DNA of 46,827 nt from Paludibacteraceae bacterium. GTDB taxonomy: Bacteria; Bacteroidota; Bacteroidia; Bacteroidales; Paludibacteraceae. The stretch covers positions 1-46,827 of the forward strand of contig JAFOFC010000031.1 of the NCBI GenBank assembly GCA_017387515.1, in the 5' to 3' direction. A model generated the notes under the pieces. The model was not told the origin of the DNA and ran no database searches. It worked only from the letters and a program-made list of their open reading frames with translations. Shown piece after piece: positions 8,607 through 32,530 of the stretch (positions are counted from its first letter, which is position 1; every line of letters begins with the position of its first letter). Both the position numbers and the translations under genes were made by a program.

Positions 8607-9035
8607 ATGATTAGTTATCATACAGAAGACATTAAAAAACCCAACATTTGTACTAGACGTACATCGGCATGGGTAAAAAGTGTAGCCGCATCGCACGGTA
8701 AAACCATCGGTGAAATCGCTTATATTTTCTGTTCCGACCCCTACATTTTAGAGGTGAATAAACAGTATTTGCAGCACGATTATTTTACCGATATCATTAC
8801 GTTCGATTACAGCGAAGGCAATAAAATATCGGGCGATTTATTTATTTCGCTCGATACGGTTAAAAGCAATTCCGAACAATTTGGAACCGATTATTACGAA
8901 GAGTTAGAGCGCGTCATTATTCACGGCATATTGCACCTTTGCGGCTTTAAAGACAAAGAGCCTGCCGACGAAGCACGCATGCGCGAAGAAGAAAATAAAG
9001 CCATTTCATCGTTAGAAAAACCACTTAAAAAATGA
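8607..9035 (+). CDS. ybeY: Endoribonuclease YbeY
   Basis: A 142-residue zinc metalloprotein involved in 16S rRNA 3' end maturation and ribosome quality control. The metal motif is IIHGILHLCGFKDKEP: two histidines spaced HxxxH as usual, with Asp at the place of the third His of the E. coli enzyme (HxxxHxxxxxH). Asp at this place appears usual in Bacteroidetes homologues, so I do not treat it as a defect. The upstream region IAYIFCSDPYILEVNKQYL and DIITFDYSE are family hallmarks. It overlaps mnmG by 4 nt (ATGA), indicating translational coupling. Confidence 0.92.
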   Translation: MISYHTEDIKKPNICTRRTSAWVKSVAASHGKTIGEIAYIFCSDPYILEVNKQYLQHDYFTDIITFDYSEGNKISGDLFISLDTVKSNSEQFGTDYYEELERVIIHGILHLCGFKDKEPADEARMREEENKAISSLEKPLKK

Positions 9036-10906
9036 CATTTGAATACGACGTTATTGTAGTAGGCGCCGGCCATGCCGGATGCGAAGCAGCAGCTGCTGCT
9101 GCCAACATGGGTTCAAAAACCTTGCTCATTACCATGGACATGAACAAAATTGCCCAAATGAGCTGTAACCCTGCCATTGGGGGCATTGCCAAGGGGCAAA
9201 TTGTGCGCGAAATTGACGCTATGGGCGGTTTCCAAGGATTGGTAACCGACCGCAGTTCGCTTCAATTTAGAATGCTAAACCGTTCTAAAGGCCCTGCTAT
9301 GTGGAGCCCACGTTCGCAATGCGACCGCATGAAATTTATTCAAAATTGGCGCTATGTGTTAGAAAACACCCCTAACCTTTACATTTGGCAAGACACCGCC
9401 GTTGGACTCATTATAAAGAACAATACGGTTTGTGGGGTAAAAACGGCATTAAACGTCGATTTCATCGCAAAAAGCGTGGTGCTTACCAATGGCACTTTCT
9501 TGAATGGTTTGATGCACATAGGCAAAACTCAATTGGCTGGTGGCCGCTGTTCCGAACCTGCTAGCTACGGCATTACCGAGCAGCTAAAAGAAATTGGTTT
9601 TACTACCGACAGAATGAAAACAGGTACCCCTGTAAGAATTGATATCAGAAGTGTAGATTTTGCCCATCTCACCGAACAACCTGGCGAATACGATTTTCAT
9701 AAATTTTCGTATTTAGACGAACCATTACGCCCCCTAAAACAGCTGCCTTGCTACACCCTTACTACCAACGAGGCAGTACACGAAGTGTTACGAGGTGGCC
9801 TAAAAGATTCGCCCCTTTACAACGGACAAATTAAAAGCATTGGGCCAAGATATTGCCCCAGTATAGAAACCAAAATTGTAACCTTTGGCGACAAAGATTC
9901 GCATCCTTTGTTTTTGGAACCAGAAGGCGAAAACACCACAGAATATTACTTGAATGGGTTCTCGTCTTCCCTACCCTTAGAGGTACAACTAAACGCATTG
10001 CAACAAATCCCTGCGTTTAAAAACATTCATATTTTCCGTCCTGGTTATGCCATAGAATACGACTTTTTTGACCCAACACAACTATTGCATAGCTTAGAAA
10101 CTAAGTTGGTTAAAAACCTATTTTTTGCCGGTCAAATCAATGGAACTACGGGCTACGAAGAAGCCGGTGGACAGGGCTTAATTGCGGGCATAAACGCCCA
10201 CCTTGCTACCCAAGGAACAGACCGTTTTAGCCTAGGCAGAGACGAAGCTTACATTGGTGTACTAATAGACGATTTGGTTACCAAAGGCGTTGACGAACCC
10301 TACCGCATGTTTACCTCGCGCGCCGAGTACCGCATTCTTTTGCGCCAAGACGATGCCGATGCACGCCTAACTCCTAAGTCTAGAAAAATTGGTTTGGCCG
10401 ACGATAGACGTTGGAATTTATTGCAAGAAAAGCAACAAAAATGCGAAGAGTTGAGCGCATTATTGCGTGCCGAAAGTGCTACCCCCGATCAAGTAAACGA
10501 AGGCTTACGCGCCATTGGAAGCACCGAAATTAAGCACCGTCATCGCCTAAACGAATTGCTTTTGCGCCCTGGTATTGACCTAAACTTTTTGGCCGAGCGT
10601 GTGCCCATTTTGTGCAATGCCATTGATGCCCTACCCAACCGCAAAGAAGAGATAATGGAAGAGGTAGAAATTACCTTTAAATATGCTGGCTACATTGACC
10701 GCGAAAAACTAATTGCCGAAAAATTACACCGCCTAGAGCACATCAAAATTAAAGGCAAATTTGACTATGCTTCCATTACCGCTATATCGACCGAAGCCCG
10801 CCAAAAACTAATCAAAACCGACCCAGAAACCATTGCTCAGGCCAGCCGCATTCCTGGTGTTTCGCCCAGCGATGTAAACATCTTGCTAGTAATGATGGGA
10901 AGGTAA
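9032..10906 (+). CDS. mnmG: tRNA uridine-5-carboxymethylaminomethyl modification enzyme MnmG
   Basis: A 624-residue FAD enzyme that with MnmE installs the cmnm5 group on U34 of certain tRNAs. The dinucleotide-binding motif is VVGAGHAGCEAA (10-21). The family signatures NPAIGGIAKGQIVREIDAMGG, GTPVRID, GPRYCPSIE and the second FAD segment NGTTGYEEAGGQGLIAG are all present. The C-terminal helical domain ends RIPGVSPSDVNILLVMMGR. It is full length and coupled to ybeY. In many bacteria mnmG lies close to oriC and parAB; here a parS-type palindrome lies 87 nt after its stop. Confidence 0.97.
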   Translation: MTFEYDVIVVGAGHAGCEAAAAAANMGSKTLLITMDMNKIAQMSCNPAIGGIAKGQIVREIDAMGGFQGLVTDRSSLQFRMLNRSKGPAMWSPRSQCDRMKFIQNWRYVLENTPNLYIWQDTAVGLIIKNNTVCGVKTALNVDFIAKSVVLTNGTFLNGLMHIGKTQLAGGRCSEPASYGITEQLKEIGFTTDRMKTGTPVRIDIRSVDFAHLTEQPGEYDFHKFSYLDEPLRPLKQLPCYTLTTNEAVHEVLRGGLKDSPLYNGQIKSIGPRYCPSIETKIVTFGDKDSHPLFLEPEGENTTEYYLNGFSSSLPLEVQLNALQQIPAFKNIHIFRPGYAIEYDFFDPTQLLHSLETKLVKNLFFAGQINGTTGYEEAGGQGLIAGINAHLATQGTDRFSLGRDEAYIGVLIDDLVTKGVDEPYRMFTSRAEYRILLRQDDADARLTPKSRKIGLADDRRWNLLQEKQQKCEELSALLRAESATPDQVNEGLRAIGSTEIKHRHRLNELLLRPGIDLNFLAERVPILCNAIDALPNRKEEIMEEVEITFKYAGYIDREKLIAEKLHRLEHIKIKGKFDYASITAISTEARQKLIKTDPETIAQASRIPGVSPSDVNILLVMMGR

Positions 10907-10993: not shown

Positions 10994-11009
10994 TGTTCCA
11001 CGTGGAACA
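10994..11009. promoter_or_regulatory. parS-type centromere site 1
   Basis: TGTTCCACGTGGAACA is a perfect 16 bp palindrome with the ParB-binding form TGTTnCACGTGnAACA. The symmetry extends to 24 bp (10990-11013). ParB loads on such sites near chromosome origins. No parA or parB gene is in the window. Confidence 0.85.
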
Positions 11010-11141: not shown

Positions 11142-11666
11142 ATGACCTTACAAGAAGCAAAAAACATTATCCGCATTGTGCAGGATTTTCCTAAACCTGG
11201 CATTGGATTTATTGATTTGGTACAGCCTTTGCAAAACACAGCCTTTATTAGCTGCGTTAGAAACGAACTAAAATCGTTGTATCAAGACAAAGGAATTACC
11301 AAGATTGTAGCCATAGAGTCGCGCGGATTTTTCTTTAGTTCTATACTTGCTTGCGACATCAACGCTGGCCTTGTACCTATCCGCAAAAAAGGGAAATTAC
11401 CTCCCGAAACCATTAGCGCAACCTACCAAAAAGAGTACGGCCAAGACAGCATTGAAATGCTAAAAGATTCGCTTACTAAAGACGATGTGGTTTTGCTTCA
11501 CGACGATATTTTGGCCACGGGCGGCACCATTCAAGCAGCGTGCAATATGCTTAAAGAAATTGGCGTAAAAAAGATTTACCTCAACTTTATTGGCGAGATC
11601 GATTTTTTAGAAGGTCGCAAGCTTATTGACCCAACCATAGAAACCACCGCGCTGTTTCATTTTTAA
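11142..11666 (+). CDS. apt: Adenine phosphoribosyltransferase
   Basis: A 174-residue purine salvage enzyme that converts adenine and PRPP to AMP. The PRPP-binding loop is VVLLHDDILATGGTIQAA (about 115-132). The N-terminal part carries FPKPGIGFIDLVQPL and IVAIESRGFFFSS, and the flexible-loop segment RKKGKLPPETISATYQKEYG is typical of Apt. The length is normal. It stands alone between two repeat-filled gaps, each holding a parS-type site. No promoter could be separated from the repeats. Confidence 0.95.
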   Translation: MTLQEAKNIIRIVQDFPKPGIGFIDLVQPLQNTAFISCVRNELKSLYQDKGITKIVAIESRGFFFSSILACDINAGLVPIRKKGKLPPETISATYQKEYGQDSIEMLKDSLTKDDVVLLHDDILATGGTIQAACNMLKEIGVKKIYLNFIGEIDFLEGRKLIDPTIETTALFHF

Positions 11667-11942: not shown

Positions 11943-11958
11943 TGTTCCACGTGGAACA
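11943..11958. promoter_or_regulatory. parS-type centromere site 2
   Basis: A second exact copy of TGTTCCACGTGGAACA, 949 bp from site 1. The flanking bases are not symmetrical here, so the palindrome is the 16 bp core only. Confidence 0.85.
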
Positions 11959-12154: not shown

Positions 12155-13954
12155 ATGCCCTACACCGACCACATAAAACAATTGGTTTCTGCCCTGCCTA
12201 ATAGTCCGGGCGTATACCAATATTTTAACCAGGAGGGGACTATAATTTACGTTGGAAAGGCAAAAAATTTAAAACGAAGGGTATCGTCGTATTTCAATAA
12301 AAAGGAACAAAGTGCAAAGGTAGCGGCATTGGTTAAACACATTTACGATTTAAAATACATCGTAGTAGAAACAGAAAACGATGCCCTACTGTTAGAAAAT
12401 AACCTGATAAAACAATACCAACCGCACTACAATATTTTGCTTAAAGATGGCAAAACGTATCCGTGGTTGTGTATTACCAAAGAAGAATTTCCACGTATTT
12501 TTAAAACCCGTCAAATTATGCGTGGTGCCGAATATTTTGGCCCATACAGTTCGGTTTGGGTACTGGATACATTGCTAGAATTAATACGCAGCATCTACCC
12601 CATTAGAACGTGTAAATTTCCCCTATTCACCGATAAAATTAACCAAGGCAAATACAAGCTTTGTTTAGAATACCACATTAAAAATTGCAAGGGTCCGTGC
12701 GAGGGAAAACAAAGCAAAGAAGAGTACCAAAAGATGATTGCCGAAATTAGGGAAATTGCCAAAGGTAACAGTTCGGTAATAACGGGTATGCTAACGCAAG
12801 AAATGAAACAATTGGCAGCGGAATATCGATTTGAAGAGGCGGCCGCTGTAAAGGCCAAATTAGACGCTCTGTTGCAATATCGCACCAAAACGGTAATAAC
12901 TACCACCGCCACCGAAAATATGGACGTAGTGGGCTACGAAGAAGACGGTAGCGCTGTTTACATCAATATGCTACACATTATAGAAGGATCGATAGTAAAA
13001 GGGCTTACCATCGAATACAATAAACTGATGGACGAACCAGCAGAAGAGGTGTTGGCGATGGGCATATTGGAACTACGCGATCGCTTGCAAAGTACGGCAA
13101 AAACCATATTGGTACCCTTTATGCCTGCCATAGCATTAGACGGGGTAAACATGAATATTCCAATACGGGGCGACAAGAAAAAATTGCTGGATTTATCGGC
13201 ACAAAACGTAAAACAATACAAGGTAGATAAATACAAGTTATCGGAAAAACTAAATCCAGAACAACGCCAAACACAGGTGCTAAATGCCCTAAAAGAACAC
13301 CTAAAATTAGATAAATTGCCGCTACACATTGAGTGTTTTGATAACTCTAATATTTCGGGCGATAGCGCAGTGGCAGGATTAGTGGTGTACAAAAAAGGCA
13401 AACCATCAAAGCAAGATTACCGCAAGTACAACATTAAAACCGTACAAGGACCCGACGATTATGCCTCTATGCGCGAGGTGGTATACCGCCGCTATAAACG
13501 GATGATGGACGAGCAAACTCCCCTACCCGATTTAATTGTAGCCGATGGCGGGGTTGGTCAAATGGAATCGATAAGGCAAGCGATAGAAGACGAGCTAAAG
13601 TTAAACATTCCCATTGCGGGCCTTGCCAAAAACGATAAACACCAAACACGCGAATTGCTTTTTGGGTTTCCACCGCAAACCATCGGACTAAAAGCCAACG
13701 ACCCTTGCTTTAAATTTTTAGCGGGTATGCAAGAAGAGGTGCACCGATACGCCATAGAATTTCATAGAGACAAGCGGAGCAAGAAACAAACCGCCTCAGA
13801 ATTGGATCAAATTAAGGGAATTGGCGAAGAAACCAAAAATAAACTTTTGTTAACATTTAAAAGCGTAAAACGCATCAAAGAGTCAACACTAGAAAATCTA
13901 GAAAATTGCATTGGAAAACACAGAGCATCAATTGTTTACAATCATTTTCATTAA
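12155..13954 (+). CDS. uvrC: UvrABC system protein C
   Basis: The 599-residue excinuclease subunit that makes both incisions in nucleotide excision repair. An N-terminal GIY-YIG nuclease domain (GVYQYFNQEGTIIYVGKAKN, with catalytic Arg in KRRVSSYF and Glu in LLLENNLIKQ) makes the 3' cut. A UVR/UvrB-binding motif lies around residues 218-245 (YRFEEAAAVKAKLDAL). The RNase H-like 5' nuclease domain starts near 389 (IECFDNSNISGDSAVAGLVV, with LIVADGGVGQ). Tandem HhH motifs close the protein (IKGIGEETKNKLL). Full length; the start is the first ATG after the repeat-filled gap. Confidence 0.97.
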   Translation: MPYTDHIKQLVSALPNSPGVYQYFNQEGTIIYVGKAKNLKRRVSSYFNKKEQSAKVAALVKHIYDLKYIVVETENDALLLENNLIKQYQPHYNILLKDGKTYPWLCITKEEFPRIFKTRQIMRGAEYFGPYSSVWVLDTLLELIRSIYPIRTCKFPLFTDKINQGKYKLCLEYHIKNCKGPCEGKQSKEEYQKMIAEIREIAKGNSSVITGMLTQEMKQLAAEYRFEEAAAVKAKLDALLQYRTKTVITTTATENMDVVGYEEDGSAVYINMLHIIEGSIVKGLTIEYNKLMDEPAEEVLAMGILELRDRLQSTAKTILVPFMPAIALDGVNMNIPIRGDKKKLLDLSAQNVKQYKVDKYKLSEKLNPEQRQTQVLNALKEHLKLDKLPLHIECFDNSNISGDSAVAGLVVYKKGKPSKQDYRKYNIKTVQGPDDYASMREVVYRRYKRMMDEQTPLPDLIVADGGVGQMESIRQAIEDELKLNIPIAGLAKNDKHQTRELLFGFPPQTIGLKANDPCFKFLAGMQEEVHRYAIEFHRDKRSKKQTASELDQIKGIGEETKNKLLLTFKSVKRIKESTLENLENCIGKHRASIVYNHFH

Positions 13955-21522: not shown

Positions 21523-22031
21523 AATGGGTAAAAACATACAAAAAAACCATTTTATTCAGTATTTTTTTACTGATTGTATCGCTCATAAAAATACCATCGC
21601 CCGACGATTTGTTAAACATGTTATGGGTAGACGTGGTTCCTATTCATCCTACCATCGAAAATTCGATTGTTAGCATTAGTACCACCCCTAATGTAGATAA
21701 ATACGAACATTGCTTTTTATATGCTATTTTAGCCTTTATTTTATGGCTAGAAATCCCTCATAAAAAGAAAGGAAAATCTTATCTTTTTATTTTTGAATAT
21801 GGATTTACTTTAGGATTAATCATTGAATGTTTACAAGCCATAACACCCCATCGAAGCTTTAACATCATGGACGCCGTAGCCAATACTTGCGGCATTTTAA
21901 TTGCCTTAATTCTTATTTTTATAATTTCTTACGTGTATGAACGAATACGAAAAAGTTTGTCAAATAGCTCTTACGCTACTAAAAGGTGTTGGGTACACCA
22001 ACGCCAAAAATTTAGTAAACTGTTTAGGTAG
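21519..22031 (+). CDS. VanZ-like membrane protein
   Basis: A 170-residue protein with about four hydrophobic segments. The VanZ signature is DKYEHCFLYAILAFILWLE, then GLIIECLQAITPHRSFNIMD and AVANTCGILIALILIF. The start at 21519 uses the ATGA overlap with hemW; another ATG at 21504 is in frame. The domain ends near 21930, but the frame runs on 95 nt into dprA, adding a charged tail (KRCWVHQRQKFSKLFR) not expected for the family. The role of chromosomal VanZ-like proteins is unclear. Confidence 0.8.
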   Translation: MKWVKTYKKTILFSIFLLIVSLIKIPSPDDLLNMLWVDVVPIHPTIENSIVSISTTPNVDKYEHCFLYAILAFILWLEIPHKKKGKSYLFIFEYGFTLGLIIECLQAITPHRSFNIMDAVANTCGILIALILIFIISYVYERIRKSLSNSSYATKRCWVHQRQKFSKLFR

Positions 22032-23067
22032 TGCCAGTAACCTTTTTTCTTGTACCAAACAAGATTTACTAAGCCTACCAGGTGTACAATCTAAAAGCCT
22101 TGTATATAGTTTAATAGACCAGTTTTCTACGGTTTTAAAAACAGCAGAAAAAGAGTACCAACTGTGCTTACAGCAAGGTATTACCCCTATTTTTTATACC
22201 GATAGTGCCTATCCAACGCAACTAAACGAATGTACCGATGCTCCCCTACTCTTGTTTCAGAAAGGAAATATTTCGTTAAAACAAGGTACATTTGTATCGA
22301 TAGTAGGTACCCGTCAGGCTACTAATTACGGAAAAGAACAATGTTTTAAATTGGTAAACGACCTGGCTAAACAAATACCAAATTTGGTAATTGTAAGTGG
22401 ATTGGCCTATGGTATTGATATTGCAGCCCACAAAGCTGCTTTGCAATGTAATGTGCCTACTATTGGGGTAATGGCTAGTGGATTTAATAGAATTTACCCC
22501 ACTGCACACAGGCAAATTGCCAACGATATGTTGCAAGACGGAGGTATTTTAACTGAACAACTGTATTACGACGAACCGCTTAAACCCTACTTTATTAAAA
22601 GAAACAGAATTATTGCAGGCTTGTGCGAGGCTTTGGTGGTAGTAGAAAGTGCCGCTAAAGGCGGTGCATTGGTAACAGCCAGCATAGCAGGCACCTATAA
22701 TAAAGATGTGTTTGTTTTTCCGGGCAGATGCAACGACAGTGTATCGGCAGGTTGTAATGCGCTTATTAAACACAACAAAGCTTCTTTAATAGAAAATGCT
22801 GCTGATTTATTGTATATGATGGGTTGGGAGAAAGGAAAAATACCTAAGTCATTGGCTATCGAATCTACTCTTCCGCCATTTTTTAACCAACTTTCTACAG
22901 AAGAACAACGTATTGTTAGTTGCATTTTTAACGAAAAGATGATTCACATTGACGATCTTTCTAATAAAGTGAACATGGGTGTTAGCGATTTATTGCCGCT
23001 TTTATTGATGCTTGAATTTCAGAATGTAGTAATTTGCTTACCAGGAAATAGGTACAAATTGAAGTAA
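21937..23067 (+). CDS. dprA: DNA-processing protein DprA
   Basis: A 376-residue protein that loads RecA on incoming single-stranded DNA in natural transformation. An N-terminal HhH/SAM-like segment (IALTLLKGVGYTNAKNLVNC) precedes the Rossmann core with VSIVGTRQATNYGKE, VIVSGLAYGIDIAAHKAAL, the FIKRNRIIAGLCEALVVVES strand and GGALVTASIAG. A C-terminal winged helix (HIDDLSNKVNMGVSDLLPLL) completes the usual architecture. It starts inside the VanZ-like gene. It is the only clear competence gene here, though an HhH/barrel protein lies close by. Confidence 0.95.
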   Translation: MNEYEKVCQIALTLLKGVGYTNAKNLVNCLGSASNLFSCTKQDLLSLPGVQSKSLVYSLIDQFSTVLKTAEKEYQLCLQQGITPIFYTDSAYPTQLNECTDAPLLLFQKGNISLKQGTFVSIVGTRQATNYGKEQCFKLVNDLAKQIPNLVIVSGLAYGIDIAAHKAALQCNVPTIGVMASGFNRIYPTAHRQIANDMLQDGGILTEQLYYDEPLKPYFIKRNRIIAGLCEALVVVESAAKGGALVTASIAGTYNKDVFVFPGRCNDSVSAGCNALIKHNKASLIENAADLLYMMGWEKGKIPKSLAIESTLPPFFNQLSTEEQRIVSCIFNEKMIHIDDLSNKVNMGVSDLLPLLLMLEFQNVVICLPGNRYKLK

Positions 23068-23091
23068 ATGAGTACCCTATAAAAAAACAAA

Positions 23092-23113
23092 AGGTAGTCA
23101 CGCCTGACCACCT
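23092..23113 (+). other. Hairpin downstream of dprA
   Basis: AGGTAGTCA and TGACCACCT pair with a single A-C mismatch around CGCC. No T-run follows on the plus strand, but a run of seven As lies upstream, so on the minus strand it could end transcription. It lies 26 nt before the short ORF start. Confidence 0.6.
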
Positions 23114-23139
23114 ATTTGCTAACCTTAAAATCAAATACT

Positions 23140-23211
23140 ATGAAAAAATCACAATGCAAATGTAGACTAATTTTACTGCACAACAAGCATCAAGCAATAA
23201 ATATTGATTAA
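23140..23211 (+). CDS. Putative 23-residue leader-like peptide
   Basis: ATG AAA AAA TCA opens a 23-codon frame ending TAA at 23209-23211. The peptide has a Cys-Lys-Cys-Arg core (KKSQCKCRLILLHNKH). The spacing from the hairpin and the AAAATCAAATACT stretch before the ATG look like a real Bacteroidetes translation start. Nothing supports expression; it could be a regulatory leader, a small protein or a chance frame. Confidence 0.35.
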   Translation: MKKSQCKCRLILLHNKHQAINID

Positions 23212-23452
23212 AAGGCATTAAATAACAGCTTTTTATTACATTCGGTTTACATTGTTGTTAATAAGCTATTACAAAGTGTTCAAAACCCTGTTCATAACTA
23301 TTGGTAAATAGTAAAAAATAAATTTGGATTTTAGAAAACTAATTTGGCATGTATCTTTTTTTTATACCTCCAAATAAAGTTGTTGGCTATTATTCAAAAA
23401 AAATAAACATGCTTATTAACCTATTTTTTATGGATAACCGTAAAAAGTTTCT

Positions 23453-23460
23453 TACATTTG
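23453..23460 (+). promoter_or_regulatory. Possible -7 element upstream of nadA
   Basis: TACATTTG matches TAnnTTTG, but no TTTG is found at -33 spacing and it lies about 200 nt before nadA. Confidence 0.35.
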
Positions 23461-23665
23461 CAGTTATAAACACTATGTTAATAACTAGGTCAACGTACAA
23501 ATTATAAAGGAGTTACTCTGTTAATAAGTGGTTAATAACCTATTTTCTGTTGATTATAACTTTAAAAGCAAATTTATAGCTAGATTTTTATCAACTTATT
23601 AACAAGCCCTTATTCTTCCTTTTTAATTTCTTTTTTTAATGTTTTTAATTTAAATAAAAAATAAA

Positions 23666-24583
23666 ATGGATTGGGTTAAAAAGATAGCCGAGCTAAAGAA
23701 GCAAAAAAATGCCATCATTATGGCACACTATTATCAAGATGCCAGCATACAAGATATAGCCGATTATGTAGGCGATAGTTTGGCTTTGGCACAATGGGCT
23801 GCCAAAACCGATGCCGATATTATTGTAATGTGCGGGGTACATTTTATGGGCGAAACAGCTAAAATTTTATCGCCTAGTAAAAAAGTATTGGTTCCCGATA
23901 CAGCAGCAGGTTGTTCGTTGGCCGATAGCTGTCCTGCCGCCGAATTTGCATCGTTTATAAAACAACATCCAGGGCATACCGTAATATCGTATGTTAATAC
24001 AACAGCAGCTGTAAAAGCGTTAACCGATGTGGTGGTAACTTCTACCAATGCTAAAGCCATAGTAGATACTTTCCCAAAAGATGCTCCTATTATATTTGGC
24101 CCTGATTATAATTTAGGTAATTACATCAATAGTGTTACAGGCAGAAACATGGTTTTGTGGAATGGCGCTTGTCATGTACACGAAAAATTTACCGTCAATA
24201 ACATCAAAGCCTTAAAAGAGCAATACCCAGATGCCCCTGTTTTAACGCACCCAGAATGTAAACAAGAAATAGTAGAAATTTCTGATTATGTTGGTTCTAC
24301 ACAGGCTATTTTGAACTATGCAGGTAAATCGGAGGCTTCTACCTTTATTGTAGTAACAGAGAGTGGTATATTGCACAAAATGAGGCAAGCATATCCTACC
24401 AAAACCTTTATAGCTCCATCTGTAGAAGGTGCTACTTGCAACGAATGCAATTACATGCGTTTAAATACCTTAGAAAAGGTGTATAATTGCTTGTTAAACG
24501 AATCGCCAGAGGTATTGGTAGACGAAGCATTAGCACAAAAAGCCGTAAAACCCATTGTGCATATGTTAGAATTGTCTAAATAG
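23666..24583 (+). CDS. nadA: Quinolinate synthase A
   Basis: A 305-residue 4Fe-4S enzyme that condenses iminoaspartate with dihydroxyacetone phosphate to quinolinate in NAD synthesis. The three cluster ligands are readable: Cys83 (AGCSLAD), Cys169 (WNGACHVHEKF) and Cys258 (GATCNECNY). Substrate motifs AHYYQDASIQDIADYVGDS and MCGVHFMGETAKIL are present. nadB and nadC are not in the window. Its stop codon directly abuts that of the convergent gene downstream. Confidence 0.97.
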   Translation: MDWVKKIAELKKQKNAIIMAHYYQDASIQDIADYVGDSLALAQWAAKTDADIIVMCGVHFMGETAKILSPSKKVLVPDTAAGCSLADSCPAAEFASFIKQHPGHTVISYVNTTAAVKALTDVVVTSTNAKAIVDTFPKDAPIIFGPDYNLGNYINSVTGRNMVLWNGACHVHEKFTVNNIKALKEQYPDAPVLTHPECKQEIVEISDYVGSTQAILNYAGKSEASTFIVVTESGILHKMRQAYPTKTFIAPSVEGATCNECNYMRLNTLEKVYNCLLNESPEVLVDEALAQKAVKPIVHMLELSK

Positions 24584-26488
24584 CTACCATTTGTATTGAA
24601 CCAAACAGTGAAAAAAAGTTTGACTAGGGCCATTTATGGCTTCATTTCCAGTCCCAATGCTGTTTTGATTCCAATACCACGTATGCGCAATTTTTAGGAA
24701 TATACCCCACCCTTTATACGGTTTATAGCCTATATTTAGGTAGGTTCTTATTCCTTTTCCATAATAAGCCGTGTTCGAAAATGCATACAACACATCGTTT
24801 TCGTACACGGTTATTTTATTGTCGTAATTGGGAATATCAAAAAATGCCAACCTAGCTATTAGGTTTAGGGTATTGTTTTTCCATCCTATGTCTTGATACA
24901 TTAAATTCCCTATGCGTAATTCATCGGTATGGTACTGAAAAAAATGAATTTCGCTTCCTAATTTTAATATCATTCCGTTGTTAAAATTGCCTTGGTAAGT
25001 TACTAGTACCCTATTTTTAGTATACGGATGGGTGGGTAAAATACCATCGTTGCTAGTAGCGGCATTTCTTTCTGATAAATACCATTGCCATTTGGCCAAT
25101 ACTTGTTGGTTTTGTTTGGGTGTTAAGGTAATAGATGCAAAGGTTTTATAGTGAATAGCAGGTTTGCTAATGCGATAGGCTTGCGATAACGATTGGTATA
25201 CATCGGCACAGGTATTTAGTTTAAAAGTAGGGGTAATTTGCCATTCTAACCCCATAAAAACCCCTGCTTCGCCGTTTTTATAACTACTTTCTATGCTATT
25301 GTATCCCAAGGCATTGTTATAATTTTTGCTGTAATACCTAGCTTGTATAGCATATAGTAAGCTGCTGTGTAATTGTACTTGAATATTTTGCAAAGTAGCT
25401 ATTTTTCCTTGATGATTAACGGCAATTTCGCCCGAAAATTGAAAATTTTTAAAATAGGTTCTGTAATCCAATCCCATAAATGCTGTTTGTGTAAAAGAAT
25501 CGTACATGGCCGTAGTACCTATTTTAAAATGCGTGTAACGGGCCATGATATTGCCCCCTACCAACCAATTATATCCGCTTTTTTTCTTTTCTAATTCGTT
25601 TAATGTTCGATGCAGCCCTGCAGCTAAATCGGTATATTTAATAGAACCCAAAGCCGTAAAAGTCCAATGTTTACTTTGTAACGATAATGCTGCTCCACGT
25701 AAAAAATACGTTTCGGATCCTTTCTTTTTGCCGCTTATTTTGTCTTGTCTTTTAATCATCGAACTTAAATTAGCCCAATTGCCAAACGAACCCCCATTGC
25801 CCATTACCAATCCTTGGCCAAATTGAGGGGTATAATCTCCTATTACTATGTCTTTTACAATGCCTATATTTTTCCATGCTATGTGTCCGCCGTAAAAATC
25901 AAAACCAGCATTATAAGGCAATGTAAAGGGTTCTAAGGCATCTTTTTCCATGGTAGCACTAATAGAAAATTGGTTATGATTTAATTGATAATTGATATAA
26001 CCTGCCCATGGTTTACCCAAATACAACGGGTTTACGTTTGCTAATTTTTGCTGAAACGTATAGTCAAAACGTGTGTTTATTTGTTGCGAGGCATTTTTAA
26101 AACAAGTGCGAAAAGAAAATGCTTGTTTTTCTTCTAAAGGCAAAGCCACTACAAAAGGCATCAAAAGCGATAGGGTATTTTCGTCAAATCCTTCTATTAA
26201 ACTCAATTCGTAAGGGGTAGCAAAAAAATCCCTATCGTGTCGGTATTCTAGCAAATTTTCTATTTGTAGTTCGGATAAAAACGCAAATTGTTCTAAGGTT
26301 TCTCTGTTTACTGTATTTAGGTTAATAGGATGCGCTAGTTTATCCATCAATACCTGATAAATAGTTTCGGCTTGTTCCTCATTGTCTGTATAATCTGCTA
26401 ACCATGTTTCAACCACTATAGGAAGCGATGTAGCGTGTATTCCTATACCCATAAAAAAAACAAGTAATAGGGCTGTTATTCGTTCCAT
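24584..26488 (-). CDS. Helix-hairpin-helix protein with predicted outer-membrane beta-barrel
   Basis: A 634-residue exported protein: signal peptide (ITALLLVFFMGIGIHA), then a ComEA-like tandem HhH region around residues 50-115 (INLNTVNRETLEQFAFLSEL, SLIEGFDENTLSLLMPFV). The remaining 500 or so residues alternate aromatic strands and turns (FDYTFQQKLANVNPLYLG, GDYTPQFGQGLVMG) and end FHCLVQYKW, a barrel-type C-terminus with a terminal aromatic residue. HhH domains usually bind DNA, which is odd in an envelope protein. It overlaps the upstream PorV/PorQ-like gene by 13 nt, so the two are one operon. The function is unknown; DNA uptake is a speculation strengthened slightly by dprA nearby. Confidence 0.78.
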   Translation of the reverse strand: MERITALLLVFFMGIGIHATSLPIVVETWLADYTDNEEQAETIYQVLMDKLAHPINLNTVNRETLEQFAFLSELQIENLLEYRHDRDFFATPYELSLIEGFDENTLSLLMPFVVALPLEEKQAFSFRTCFKNASQQINTRFDYTFQQKLANVNPLYLGKPWAGYINYQLNHNQFSISATMEKDALEPFTLPYNAGFDFYGGHIAWKNIGIVKDIVIGDYTPQFGQGLVMGNGGSFGNWANLSSMIKRQDKISGKKKGSETYFLRGAALSLQSKHWTFTALGSIKYTDLAAGLHRTLNELEKKKSGYNWLVGGNIMARYTHFKIGTTAMYDSFTQTAFMGLDYRTYFKNFQFSGEIAVNHQGKIATLQNIQVQLHSSLLYAIQARYYSKNYNNALGYNSIESSYKNGEAGVFMGLEWQITPTFKLNTCADVYQSLSQAYRISKPAIHYKTFASITLTPKQNQQVLAKWQWYLSERNAATSNDGILPTHPYTKNRVLVTYQGNFNNGMILKLGSEIHFFQYHTDELRIGNLMYQDIGWKNNTLNLIARLAFFDIPNYDNKITVYENDVLYAFSNTAYYGKGIRTYLNIGYKPYKGWGIFLKIAHTWYWNQNSIGTGNEAINGPSQTFFHCLVQYKW

Positions 26489-27309
26489 AAATAAACTATT
26501 CCAACAGCTGTATTTAATCCTGTTTTAAAATGGTATTGTACCCCTATGTCTATTCTGCATTTTTTTATGCTAAGGCCAAGGCCTAACGATGGGGTAATAC
26601 CTTGGCAAACGTACATACCTGTGCGCAATGCTAATGCTTTTATAACCTGATAATCAAGGCCTATACTGTAGGCAAATGGTTGGTCTAAAGCTTTGTTAGC
26701 ATCGGCTGTAATCAGTACTTTTTGTGCAATGTGGTATCCTATACCTAATCGAAAAATAACGGGTAGGCGTGTATTTTCTGTGTTTATTTTAAAAGCCGAA
26801 AAAGTAATGTTATATACCGAAAATCCTACACGCATGTTTTTAAATGGAAAGGCTTGTAAACCTATATTAAGCCCGCCACTGTGTACATAGCCATTTTTAG
26901 GCGATTGATACAACCCATGATACGATGCTTGTAAGGCAATGGCGATATAGGGTTTAAAAAAATGGCCTAACGATACTTCTGCCGAAAATTCATGATAAGC
27001 ATCAAATCCATGAAAATTACCTTTACATGCTACGTTTACGTATCGATTAGAATAAACCAAGCCTACATTATATAGTCCAAGTGTTGGTAGTGTGGCTTTA
27101 TTTTGCAAGTAGGTTTGTACCGAACTGCTAGTTTGTAAAGCCACAGAAGCCACATTAGTTCCCAAATAATGCGACGATATGCAGCAACTGGCATTTCCCA
27201 TAGCTACAGAAATAGGGTCATGATGGTGACCATATTGCATCGCATAAATGGGCGTTAAGTAAAAAAAATAAATTATTTTTGTAAGTATGATAAGCGTAAA
27301 ACGTTTCAT
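26476..27309 (-). CDS. PorV/PorQ-like outer-membrane beta-barrel protein
   Basis: A 277-residue protein with a signal sequence (KRFTLIILTKIIYFFYLTPIYA). The mature part starts with DPISVAMGNASCCIS, which resembles the conserved opening of PorV/PorQ family barrels (RxxxMGGA), and continues as amphipathic beta-strands to GIVYLWNE. ATG 27309 is chosen because the upstream Met at 27330 adds seven residues before the signal peptide. The first 23 nt overlap the start of the divergent DUF4294-type gene. It is shorter than PorV or PorQ proper, so an exact T9SS role is not claimed. Confidence 0.65.
   Translation of the reverse strand: MKRFTLIILTKIIYFFYLTPIYAMQYGHHHDPISVAMGNASCCISSHYLGTNVASVALQTSSSVQTYLQNKATLPTLGLYNVGLVYSNRYVNVACKGNFHGFDAYHEFSAEVSLGHFFKPYIAIALQASYHGLYQSPKNGYVHSGGLNIGLQAFPFKNMRVGFSVYNITFSAFKINTENTRLPVIFRLGIGYHIAQKVLITADANKALDQPFAYSIGLDYQVIKALALRTGMYVCQGITPSLGLGLSIKKCRIDIGVQYHFKTGLNTAVGIVYLWNE
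27274..27281 (+). promoter_or_regulatory. -7 element of the DUF4294-type gene
   Basis: TATTTTTG lies only 5 nt before ATG 27287, so the transcript would begin at or next to the start codon. Confidence 0.45.
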
Positions 27310-27898
27310 AGTATTTTTTCTGCTGGGCATGTTTAGTATAACAGCATGGTCTGTACCGTATTATAGCGAACAATTACAAGGTTATTTGTTGGCTGGCGAA
27401 TGGTATAAAGGCGAAATAATACCTGTAACAGAATTAAACGAAATACCCGTTTTTCCACGTTTAAAGTTTAAAACCAAAAAGAGCGAAAAATTTTATTGGA
27501 GAACCGTGCGCGACGTTAAAAAAGTGTATCCATATGTAAAATTTGTGGGACAAGAATACCGTAGAATTGATGCCATGTGCGATACCATATCCGATAAAAA
27601 AGAAAAAAAGAAGTACCTAAAAAAGTACGAAAAAGAGTTGTTGGCAAAATACAAGCCCATTATGAAAACCTTTACCTTATCGCAAGGTAAAATGATGATT
27701 AAATTAATAGACCGCGAGTGCGATAAGAACTCGTACGATTTGATTAAGCAATTTAGGGGCGGTTTTGTGGCATGGTGGTGGCAGGTTTTTGCTAAAATGC
27801 TAGGTGCCGATTTAAAAGACGATTATGATATTTCGCAAAAAGAACAAGATAAAATAATAGAGCGCGTTATTTTGCTTTACGAAGCAGGGGCCTTATAA
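27287..27898 (+). CDS. DUF4294-type exported protein
   Basis: A 203-residue protein with a signal peptide (KRFIVFFLLGMFSITAWS). The body is highly charged and helical, with the conserved block YWRTVRDVKKVYPYVKF, then LSQGKMMIKLIDRECDKNSY and FRGGFVAWWWQVFAKMLGA. This matches my recollection of the Bacteroidetes-specific DUF4294 family, of unknown function. It shares 23 nt with the divergent barrel gene. Its stop codon lies in the loop of the downstream terminator. Confidence 0.8.
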   Translation: MISVKRFIVFFLLGMFSITAWSVPYYSEQLQGYLLAGEWYKGEIIPVTELNEIPVFPRLKFKTKKSEKFYWRTVRDVKKVYPYVKFVGQEYRRIDAMCDTISDKKEKKKYLKKYEKELLAKYKPIMKTFTLSQGKMMIKLIDRECDKNSYDLIKQFRGGFVAWWWQVFAKMLGADLKDDYDISQKEQDKIIERVILLYEAGAL

Positions 27899-28714: not shown

Positions 28715-31700
28715 TTATTGTTTAAAGATTTTATAAAGTGTACCATCTACTTGTAATAGATAATAGCCCGCTTTTAATTGGGGCAATGGTAAATTGTAGT
28801 TACCATTAGCCGTAAATGGATCAATAAGCTGTTGTCCTACTACGTTGTACAAGGCAACTTGGTAGTTTTGTTTGTTGGTGTTAATGTGTATAGAATATCC
28901 GTTTTGTGCATTCAGTAGGGTAGGATATACCTCTTGTAGCCATAGTTGACCTACTTGGTAGCTATCTTCTGTTTCAAAATACGATTCAATAGCCCTTCCT
29001 TGTGCTCCCTCTACGTAAATATTTTCGGCCAATACGGTTTCGTTGCATCCATTTTTAGAGGTAGTGGTAAGCTTAATTTTATGTTGCCCCAAGTTGTATA
29101 AATAACAAGAAGGGTTTACTAGGGTAGAGGTACTACCTTCTACTATGCGACCATCGCCCATGTAATTTTCTTGTACTTGTAGCACCCATTTGTTTAGGTG
29201 TTCATCGGCATTAACGGTTTGGTTAATCAGTTGAATTTTACTACCAGGTGGTACTACTAGTTTTTCGTCTAAACCATATTCGTGCAGGTTGTATAAAATA
29301 CTAAAACCAGTATTAAAGGCTTCTACGCTGATGGGAATTTCTACCGTATTGCTTCTTACCCCAGTTGCGGTATCGTATCGGTAAACACGTATGGTAAAGT
29401 TTTCTGTAGCATCTTGTATAATGCATTTATTGTCTATGGTGCTATATTGCGTACTAATGGTAGATAGAACTAGTTTGGGGTTGGATGCACTCCAAATATA
29501 GCGGGTATTTTTGTTAATTAGTTCGTCGGGTTCGTTTACCACTACACTTACCTTTTCGTTAGGACATTCGGCATTAAAAACTTGTATGTTTTCTTCGCTC
29601 AGCATAGCAGAACTAAGCATCCATAGGCTGTTAGATATAGATACAATCTGGCTTTTTTCGTCGCCATTTTTGCGCGAATACACAAAGCGGGCAATTTCCC
29701 AATTTTCTTGCATGTCTTTTAGTGTTTCATCCGGCAATGAAACGTATTTGGTACTAGAATTTATTTTTTTAGTACCGCTATCGGTTACTTGGGCATAATA
29801 CCTTGAGTTGATAACAATGGGCTCCCATTCGCCGTTGGTAGATTTACGCATCCATTGGTAAGTAAAACTAAGTTTTTCTTCTTGGTTTACTTCGCCATAC
29901 CCACCAGCAACTGGGTAAGAACCAATAATATAGGGGTTACCTTGGCCAGATGGTACAAAAACCGTATCGGCAGCAGTGTGTTTAAATTCAATGATATTAC
30001 CAGTAATGGGTTGTACGTATTTTAGGTCTATTTTAATGGTATCTGATACACAACCATGAACATTGGTTTTACGAATGTAAAACGATGGGTTGGGTCTTTC
30101 TTTTACATACGGAAGTAGGGTAGTACCTTCTATGTTTTTTGTAAAGGGTTGCCAGCTATTTTCTGCTTTGTATTCGTACACGTTACCCACGTTATTATTT
30201 TTAATGGTAATGCTAGGCGAATGTTCGTTAAGGCATAGCAATTGTATATAGTTGTTGATGCTATCTGCCTTAGCAATGGCTGCCGTAGAGCTAAGTTGCG
30301 ATAGCAAAATATTATCTTGTTTAAAACGATAAATGTAAATATCCTTGCTTAAACTATCGCCGCACAACGAAATTACACATTGGTAGTGGGTGGTATCTTG
30401 CGCTAATGCGGGAATGTTGTAGGTATTTTTTTGCGATACCAGTTTTTTATTTCCCTCTACATCTACTTGGTAAATGCTATAAGAAGCATGCTGTTTTAAT
30501 AGGTTTACTTCGTGATCTGATATATGAATGTCTTTTACTAAATCAAATTGAATAAGTTTTTGTTGCAGTTCTTCTTGCGGACACAAATAGGTATGGGTAG
30601 GCCATTCGTAACCCATAAAACCAAAATTTTGTGCCATGGGTTTGCTTAGGGCACGATAGGTATAAAAATCGGTTGATGCTACACTGATGTAATAGTAGGT
30701 TTTACCATTTACCTCGATGGGATAGTTATAAAGGTCGCTTTCTTCGGTAGAAGCAAACGATTTTAATACGCACAATTGCCTAAAATAAAGTGGCTTACCA
30801 TTTTTTAGGATGGTAGATTTAAGCAATAAATCTTTGCTATCAATAATGGTTATTTGGTCTGACTCGTCTGCATTTACACGGTTTGGATCGTTATCGGCTA
30901 TGTTTTTCCAGGTTACTCCGTTAGTAGACATTTGCCAAATATAATAAGGGCTGTATACCGTAGGCGATGTGTTAGGACAAACAATCGATTTCCCTACCAA
31001 ATGAATAAGGGTGTTACTTTCTTCGGTAGCACAAATGCGCATTTCTTCTTGCTCAGCAGTCGATAGTGTGGGGAAGTACACCTTAGGAACCAACTTAAAC
31101 ATCAAGCAATTTTGTCCAAAAAACAGGTAAGGGTAGTTTTCATTATTGCTTCCATAGGTGGTTAATACGTTATACGATGGGCCATAGAACGAACAACCCA
31201 ATGCTTGCGTAACATCATGTACCTTGTTGTACGAATAATGCATTTTATTCCAAACCTTAAATACATTATGGTCGTTAATGTTGCTATTGGGAAATTTAAC
31301 TTGCTCTAAATCTCGTACATGGTACGTTCTAGTAAACCAAGTAGTTCCTGTTTTTTCGTAGTCGCTTAACTTGCTAATGGCATTTTCGTTAAATAAGGTT
31401 GCTGCTTGGTTAACGCTTTGCAGTAATACGCCTCTGGGTCTTACTATTCCGTACCAACCATCTGCATTTACTTGCGAGGCGCCATCTACAAATTCCCCAT
31501 TGTTGTATTTATTCTTGATAAAACTAAATAGGGTAGGATTGGAGTGTTTTACCAATTCAATGCACCTCAGGTTATTGTAGTTGGGTTGTTGGTTGTTTTG
31601 GCACTCTTTTATTTCTTTATCTAACATGCTGGTACTGGGAATTTGGTAACTTTCGCCCACCCCACAAATAAACGTGCTGTAACCATGGTATTTTTTACTG

Positions 31701-32530
31701 TCGATGATGGTATCAACAGGCGTATTATCGGTAGTTAAACTGACATTAAAAATAGCGTCGGGATGGTTGTATACTAGGCGATATCCTTCTTCGTTTAATG
31801 GGTTATACGTGGAGTTTCCCTGAATAACCGATTTATTACTATTAACGTATTCAATTTTTATAATACCGCCCGATCTGTTTTGGTTGCTGGTTGTTGTATG
31901 GCCAGTGCTTACTGTTCCATTGATGTGTTTAATGGCACTTTCGTATTTGCAAAAAATATTATTGGCGCCGTTTTCGTAGTGTCTCCCTACGGTTGGGGTA
32001 GTGGTAGGTGCTATATCGCTAGCACTAATAGATACCAAAAGCATAAATTGGTAGGTACCTTCTTTTAGTCCATTGGGCAATGTCCATTGAATGGTATTTT
32101 CAAATGGTTTTTTATCTATTTTAACCACATTTCTTTTGTAATCTATAATAGGCGCTTCGTGTAGAGCAATATCATTGTCTATGTAGTAGTGAGTACCCTC
32201 TGTACCCAACGTATATTTTTCTTGGTTTGCTGCTTTGTAGAACAATTTGTAATGAATGTCAAATTTACCAAACGACCATACATACCAGCAATTTAAAGCT
32301 TTTACTTGCATGTTGTACCACGTTAAATTGCCTCCATACGTAAAGGTAATGGTTTTGTTGCTTTTGGTGGTTACTACTTCTTGTTCGCAGTTAAGGTATA
32401 CTTCGGTGGGTTCCCCGCTTTTTTTAAAGTAATTAAGTAGGTATTCGTTATCTTCTATCAGGTAGTCGGTAGCGAATAGTGGACTTATGCATACCAATAG
32501 CATAAGCCACAGGGTAAACGTTTTTTTCAT
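28715..32530 (-). CDS. Large secreted T9SS cargo protein with C-terminal sorting domain
   Basis: A 1271-residue protein with signal peptide (FTLWLMLLVCISPLFA). It is built of beta-rich segments with no recognised enzyme motif; sequences such as YQWMRKSTNGEWEPI and YYIWQMSTNGVTWKNI look like Ig-like repeats of surface adhesins. The last 75 residues form a type A T9SS sorting domain (VALYNVVGQQL, then LPLPQLKAGYYLLQVDG, ending YKIFKQ). The protein is therefore exported across the outer membrane and attached or released. It is the middle gene of a three-gene minus-strand operon with a small barrel protein and a lipoprotein. Confidence 0.88.
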   Translation of the reverse strand: MKKTFTLWLMLLVCISPLFATDYLIEDNEYLLNYFKKSGEPTEVYLNCEQEVVTTKSNKTITFTYGGNLTWYNMQVKALNCWYVWSFGKFDIHYKLFYKAANQEKYTLGTEGTHYYIDNDIALHEAPIIDYKRNVVKIDKKPFENTIQWTLPNGLKEGTYQFMLLVSISASDIAPTTTPTVGRHYENGANNIFCKYESAIKHINGTVSTGHTTTSNQNRSGGIIKIEYVNSNKSVIQGNSTYNPLNEEGYRLVYNHPDAIFNVSLTTDNTPVDTIIDSKKYHGYSTFICGVGESYQIPSTSMLDKEIKECQNNQQPNYNNLRCIELVKHSNPTLFSFIKNKYNNGEFVDGASQVNADGWYGIVRPRGVLLQSVNQAATLFNENAISKLSDYEKTGTTWFTRTYHVRDLEQVKFPNSNINDHNVFKVWNKMHYSYNKVHDVTQALGCSFYGPSYNVLTTYGSNNENYPYLFFGQNCLMFKLVPKVYFPTLSTAEQEEMRICATEESNTLIHLVGKSIVCPNTSPTVYSPYYIWQMSTNGVTWKNIADNDPNRVNADESDQITIIDSKDLLLKSTILKNGKPLYFRQLCVLKSFASTEESDLYNYPIEVNGKTYYYISVASTDFYTYRALSKPMAQNFGFMGYEWPTHTYLCPQEELQQKLIQFDLVKDIHISDHEVNLLKQHASYSIYQVDVEGNKKLVSQKNTYNIPALAQDTTHYQCVISLCGDSLSKDIYIYRFKQDNILLSQLSSTAAIAKADSINNYIQLLCLNEHSPSITIKNNNVGNVYEYKAENSWQPFTKNIEGTTLLPYVKERPNPSFYIRKTNVHGCVSDTIKIDLKYVQPITGNIIEFKHTAADTVFVPSGQGNPYIIGSYPVAGGYGEVNQEEKLSFTYQWMRKSTNGEWEPIVINSRYYAQVTDSGTKKINSSTKYVSLPDETLKDMQENWEIARFVYSRKNGDEKSQIVSISNSLWMLSSAMLSEENIQVFNAECPNEKVSVVVNEPDELINKNTRYIWSASNPKLVLSTISTQYSTIDNKCIIQDATENFTIRVYRYDTATGVRSNTVEIPISVEAFNTGFSILYNLHEYGLDEKLVVPPGSKIQLINQTVNADEHLNKWVLQVQENYMGDGRIVEGSTSTLVNPSCYLYNLGQHKIKLTTTSKNGCNETVLAENIYVEGAQGRAIESYFETEDSYQVGQLWLQEVYPTLLNAQNGYSIHINTNKQNYQVALYNVVGQQLIDPFTANGNYNLPLPQLKAGYYLLQVDGTLYKIFKQ

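Follow-up and report, generated by a model that had tools for sequence, protein, structure and literature searches.

Candidate chromosomal replication origin between dprA and nadA in a Paludibacteraceae bacterium and its counterparts in other Bacteroidales

Does chromosome replication in a Paludibacteraceae bacterium start in the gap between dprA and nadA, away from dnaA? A preliminary description of this locus had proposed so. The window, i.e. the whole stretch of DNA that was analyzed (46,827 nucleotides), is contig C21 of a draft genome (G000) of 1.76 Mb in 81 contigs that is 86.9% complete. Both flanking genes are what that description took them to be: dprA (21937..23067, + strand) matches TIGR00732 with 213 bits (cut-off 191), and nadA (23666..24583, + strand), encoding quinolinate synthase, matches NF006878 and TIGR00550 above the cut-off, the best named relatives of NadA belonging to Paludibacteraceae and other Bacteroidales. 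The 598-bp gap between them (23068..23665), which as a whole constitutes the candidate oriC region, has a G+C content of 0.249, carries a cluster of DnaA-box-like sites, and corresponds in relatives to a place at or near the GC-skew minimum. From these features we infer DnaA binding and initiation in the gap: it is very probably a chromosomal oriC of the ordinary DnaA kind, unlinked from dnaA. The support for this interpretation comes chiefly from comparison with related genomes, the skew of the window itself being weak.

Seven candidate DnaA boxes were found in the gap. Four of them are exact copies of the nonamer TTATTAACA, namely box 1 (23256..23264, - strand), box 3 (23476..23484, - strand), box 4 (23519..23527, - strand), and box 7 (23596-23604, + strand), and each is invariant in the alignment of three species, G000, G013, and G007. 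The variant TTATTAACC forms box 2 (23413..23421, + strand), whose TTATTAAC is invariant in the same species and whose last base is not, and box 5 (23530..23538, - strand), which reads TTATCAAC in G013 and G007. Box 6, TTATCAACT starting at 23588, has one base in common with box 7, so that the two make up a tandem (23588..23604, + strand); box 6 differs in G013 and G007. The four exact nonamers and their near copies had been listed in the preliminary description and are all present; the box that it saw abutting an exact nonamer is box 6, and the one-mismatch DnaA box that it claimed also exists, an example of such classical boxes being TTATCCATA at 23429-23437 (- strand). An exact TTATNCACA does not occur in the gap, which thus does not conform to the classical TTATCCACA-box origin.

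Since the motif itself is AT-rich, AT-rich intergenic DNA might give such nonamers by chance. However, the four copies of TTATTAACA compare with 0.08 expected and the seven sites of the form TTAT[TC]AAC with 0.22 expected, and none of 5000 dinucleotide-preserving shuffles of the gap reached either count. The cluster therefore goes beyond chance, and a fortuitous origin of the repeats, which is refuted by the shuffles and is at odds with the invariance of the four TTATTAACA boxes in three species, has a practically negligible probability. Across the draft genome we counted 45 sites of the TTATTAACA spelling, to which this count was limited; four are in the gap, and no other two are as closely spaced.

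The same motif emerges from relatives when no motif is supplied. In 11 regions from the genus (not counting G008 and G014, where dprA is not followed by a long gap), GTTAATAA and TATTAACA are the top two enriched 8-mers. For the wider order we considered 80 named Bacteroidales loci, of which 5 had too little upstream DNA and 24 had a gap shorter than 250 bp (after an 80-aa ORF mask); in the remaining 51 nadA-upstream gaps, the top enriched 9-mer is TTATCAACA, with 54 copies against 0.77 expected, distributed over 34 gaps. Thus, both the place beside nadA and the unusual box TTATYAACA recur in many related Bacteroidales.

The DNA next to the cluster has the properties of an unwinding element. 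By nearest-neighbour energies, duplex stability in the 46.8-kb window is lowest over the 50 bp at 23617-23667, 12 bp past the tandem boxes; these 50 bp belong to a candidate DNA unwinding element (23605..23667) that reaches the nadA start codon. A DnaA-box array beside an AT-rich unwinding element is also the layout of the E. coli oriC, which differs in its box (TTATCCACA there, TTATTAACA here) and in its flanking genes. Another point of comparison is the BUS module of Bacillus subtilis, described in PMC8287927 as tandem DnaA boxes, a spacer, and DnaA-trios. Here too, the weakest DNA has tandem boxes beside it, whereas a scan for trios revealed no run of at least three [CT]TA; the looser NAN pattern given in PMC8287927 would hardly discriminate in DNA so AT-rich.

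A canonical dnaA-linked origin in the same genome had been named in the preliminary description as a finding that would contradict its proposal. The dnaA gene is on contig C25, apart from the contig of the window, and the 3.5 kb around it contain neither a TTATYAAC nor an TTATNCACA site; an origin linked to dnaA is thus not indicated there. In five complete relatives (G016, G139, G154, G167, and G178), dnaA lies about 1 kb into the record and at least 0.6 Mb from nadA round the circle; in G217, it is at 347 kb. Two parS sites TGTTCCACGTGGAACA (10994..11009 and 11943..11958), both exact matches to TGTTNCACGTGNAACA, are the only exact parS sites in the draft genome and lie 11-13 kb to the left of the gap, in agreement with the pair at 11-12 kb noticed before. 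They flank a phosphoribosyltransferase gene (11142-11666) located between mnmG (9032-10906) and uvrC (12155-13954). A ParB gene is on contig C70 of the same draft. The distance between nadA and parS is 11 kb in G016, 13 kb in G139, 32 kb in G167, 35 kb in G178, and 124 kb in G217; G208 has one exact parS, and exact parS sites are absent from 6 of the 13 genomes searched.

The preliminary description had also reported a change in the sign of the GC skew at the gap, on the basis of four hand-counted rows of 60 bases. These counts are exact (G/C of 8/16 and 8/23 on the left, 13/6 and 17/8 on the right), but the contrast that they suggest is overstated, as all rows taken together differ only modestly: C exceeds G in 188 of 389 rows to the left of the gap and in 154 of 391 rows to the right. 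The cumulative skew in the window has its raw minimum at 22.5 kb and its detrended minimum at 26.5 kb, i.e. 3 kb off the gap, and the detrended statistic is reached by 9 of 10000 block permutations. At third codon positions of + strand genes, the skew is -0.253 on the left (18 genes) and -0.125 on the right (13 genes; Mann-Whitney p 0.009), so that C exceeds G on both sides, and the strand of a gene affects the third-position skew more than the side does. The skew within the window thus supports an origin weakly and alone would not prove one, and the case is carried by the comparative evidence.

For this comparison, eight of 13 single-contig genomes were sampled, six of them round the whole chromosome (20 or 21 stretches each) and two (G180 and G223) near nadA only. 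A skew minimum elsewhere would have spoken against the proposal. In four of the six complete Bacteroidales genomes (G016, G154, G167, and G139), the sampled cumulative skew reaches its minimum at the stretch containing nadA; the minimum of G016, whose nadA is at about 2.526 Mb of a 3.686-Mb chromosome, is shallow and broad (2.2-2.5 Mb). The fifth genome, G178, has its raw minimum at position 1 and its minimum after detrending at nadA. In the sixth, G217, the minimum falls on the 2.33-Mb sample and the rise starts from 2.40 Mb, with nadA at 2.279 Mb (about 50 kb off) and parS at 2.403 Mb. A finer look at 20-kb stretches placed the turn of the skew within about 2 kb of nadA in G016, G154, G167, and G139, and was ambiguous for G178. 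The 20 kb around nadA in G180 and G223 show no skew minimum, and the link with nadA is thus not universal in the order.

In the congener G011, 16 stretches were chained along a 313-kb contig; their cumulative skew reaches its minimum at 197-198 kb, some 3 kb ahead of dprA-nadA (200-203 kb), and shows one reversal at 100 kb. Among named loci with 8 kb or more on either side of nadA (26 of the 51 with long gaps and 9 of the 24 with short gaps), the skew increases across nadA, from its upstream to its downstream side, in 24 of 26 long-gap loci (median +0.134) and in all nine short-gap loci (median +0.061); the rise is thus not tied to the gap itself. As a control, 117 stretches that lack nadA were taken from the six complete genomes and split in the middle; the skew rises in 57 of them, with a median of -0.003.

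This coincidence with the switch in strand composition also bears on another role for DnaA binding. In E. coli, datA and DARS are loci for the titration and reactivation of DnaA, located away from the origin, and they too bear clusters of DnaA boxes, so that the cluster in the gap could be a locus of this kind. Such a locus would not be expected at a skew minimum with parS nearby, and the 45 TTATTAACA sites found in the draft (87% complete) form no second cluster, as far as this one spelling goes. We therefore regard a titration or reactivation locus as very improbable.

A further explanation is regulatory: the repeats could be operators at which a transcription factor controls nadA (or dprA), and the gap a long AT-rich promoter region of the ordinary sort. 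The consensus TAnnTTTG is that of the Bacteroidetes -7 promoter element, and a sequence that fits it, TACATTTG (23453..23460, + strand), lies within the cluster, in a block that is invariant in the three aligned species. Similarly, TAACTTTGC, which is enriched in the 51 named nadA-upstream gaps along with the box, fits the -7 element and presumably represents the nadA promoter. The sites themselves are upstream of nadA in many named Bacteroidales loci, as operators of this gene would be. However, the cluster does not follow nadA through the genus. Besides the window, dprA and nadA are adjacent in 6 of the 12 congeners with a located dprA, and nadA is elsewhere in the other six; in four of the latter (G001, G003, G012, and G015), an AT-rich gap with 2-5 boxes still follows dprA. 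As the cluster keeps with dprA in these four congeners, a nadA operator alone would not account for it. Of the four copies of nadA located elsewhere for which upstream DNA was available, three have no site (G001, G012, and G015) and that of G014 has a single one. Most other genera examined have the AT-rich cluster beside nadA and no dprA match nearby, the exception being G017. In addition, a regulator would leave the skew switch at this place unexplained. Altogether, operator sites are a highly unlikely account of the repeats, and TACATTTG, a candidate -7 element, likely marks a promoter of nadA that is set within the origin.

After dprA in G008 (L251) and G014 (L244), we found neither a long AT-rich gap nor a box cluster, and the origin may be separated from dprA in these two congeners. 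The element thus appears independent of both genes: its distribution is poorly explained by an operator of nadA or a terminator of dprA, and is explained by an origin between drifting neighbours. In another genus of the family, G035 (L343), whose DnaA has the Asn discussed below, four TTATTAACA copies are located at most 300 bp upstream of nadA.

A separate neighbour, outside the origin proper, occupies the left end of the gap. A block at 23081..23152 (- strand), nearly invariant in G000, G013, and G007, contains a terminator hairpin and is preceded by a TAnnTTTG element at 23164-23157. We considered it as a possible new origin-linked RNA and rejected this idea, since Rfam identifies the block as FopS-like: the match to RF04319 is full-length (E 4.2e-7) and its score of 54.5 bits is below the gathering score of 56, hence the name FopS-like. 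In B. thetaiotaomicron, FopS sRNAs act as repressors of SusC-like transporters (PMC11697453). The draft genome has two such matches, the second one being at G000:C60:12011-12082. A FopS-like relative directly follows dprA in 7 of 12 congeners (G007, G008, G009, G011, G013, G014, and G015), and no match beside dprA was found in G001, G002, G003, G004, and G012. As the block follows dprA in G008 and G014, which lack the cluster there, and gave no match beside dprA in five congeners, its presence does not depend on that of the origin. A short ORF from 23140 (+ strand) was dropped as well; in the three-species alignment it is conserved, by eye, for no more than nine residues. Farther to the right in the window, a gene for a 1271-aa protein (28715-32530, - strand) has a match to a type IX secretion sorting domain just below the cut-off (22.6 bits vs 23), and nearby, 26476-27330 (- strand) has a weak match to the PorV family (29.1 bits, cut-off 90).

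Taken as an origin, the gap suggests the following scheme. DnaA, encoded on another contig, would bind the seven boxes between 23256 and 23604. By analogy, a DnaA oligomer extending from the tandem pair would melt the adjacent, very AT-rich DNA of the candidate unwinding element (23605-23667); the helicase would be loaded there, and two forks would depart in opposite directions. ParB, presumably bound to the two parS sites on the left, would segregate the new origins.

The unusual spelling of the box may have a counterpart in DnaA. The recognition helix of E. coli DnaA contains DHTTV, and Thr435 in it reportedly confers sequence-specific binding. In the genome of the window this helix reads RNHATVLHAC, so that NHAT stands in place of DHTT. 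HAT is present in DnaA of 42 of the 44 genomes read, with the exceptions of G028 (HTT) and G178 (HST), and it is preceded by Asn in all 13 genomes of the genus. From the sequences, a change at the position of Thr435 would fit the change from C to A at position 6 of the box. Of the two exceptions, G028 has no box of either kind in the 1.6 kb upstream of nadA and is therefore uninformative on this idea; in G178, TTATYAAC sites nonetheless occur near nadA. DnaA domain IV was matched twice in G014, with similar scores (C188 and C143); this genome has a listed contamination of 5%, and a strain mixture or contamination is a possible explanation.

We also considered whether position 5 of the box (C or T) covaries with the residue before HAT (Asp or Asn) among relatives for which both the nadA-upstream region and DnaA were available. 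As a rule this was rejected, only a tendency being seen. In its favor, genomes with Asn (G000, G004, G007, G013, and G035 of another genus) have 3-4 copies of TTATTAACA and no TTATCAACA, and genomes with Asp (G019, G032, and G038) have 2-3 copies of TTATCAACA and no TTATTAACA. G022 (Asp) runs counter to it, with three copies of TTATTAACA and no TTATCAACA, as do G029 and G027 (Asn), in which TTATCAACA alone occurs (two copies and one, respectively), and boxes are mixed in G009, G011, and G017 (Asn) and in G016 and G018 (Asp). Base composition could be the cause of the tendency. With somewhat less than even confidence, we propose that Bacteroidales as an order have re-specified the DnaA box to TTATYAACA, with A for C at position 6, in match with the helix HAT instead of the E. 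coli HTT, and that their origin resides in a recurrent nadA-oriC neighbourhood usable as an anchor; in the genus of the window, a further change from Asp to Asn would go loosely with the shift from TTATCAACA to TTATTAACA.

Origins of this kind are known. A large distance between oriC and dnaA is common in Bacteroidetes (DoriC, cited in PMC4755523), and the available text of the latter paper reports such a dnaA-distant origin for Prevotella intermedia OMA14. As there, the gap described here has DnaA-box-like sites at a skew transition and no dnaA in the vicinity. The two differ in that the P. intermedia report, in the same text, relies on E. coli boxes allowing one mismatch and mentions no neighbouring nadA, whereas here TTATTAACA dominates and an exact TTATNCACA does not occur. 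Among the literature matches listed, no title or abstract opening locates the origin of a Bacteroidales chromosome at nadA or describes its box as TTATYAACA; DoriC may well list these origins. The string TTATCAACA is contained in the available text of PMC4674748, a paper on Cyanothece origins.

The origin is the zero point for peak-to-trough estimates of growth, for gene dosage, and for chromosome organization. Bacteroidales are abundant gut bacteria, and searches relying on dnaA or on TTATCCACA could miss their origin. The recurrent place upstream of nadA and the box TTATYAACA would allow origins to be called in draft genomes, and a short DNA fragment at nadA would suit direct tests of DnaA binding. 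If the proposal is true, the nadA-oriC anchor would serve to find origins and to measure growth rates in draft genomes of gut bacteria.
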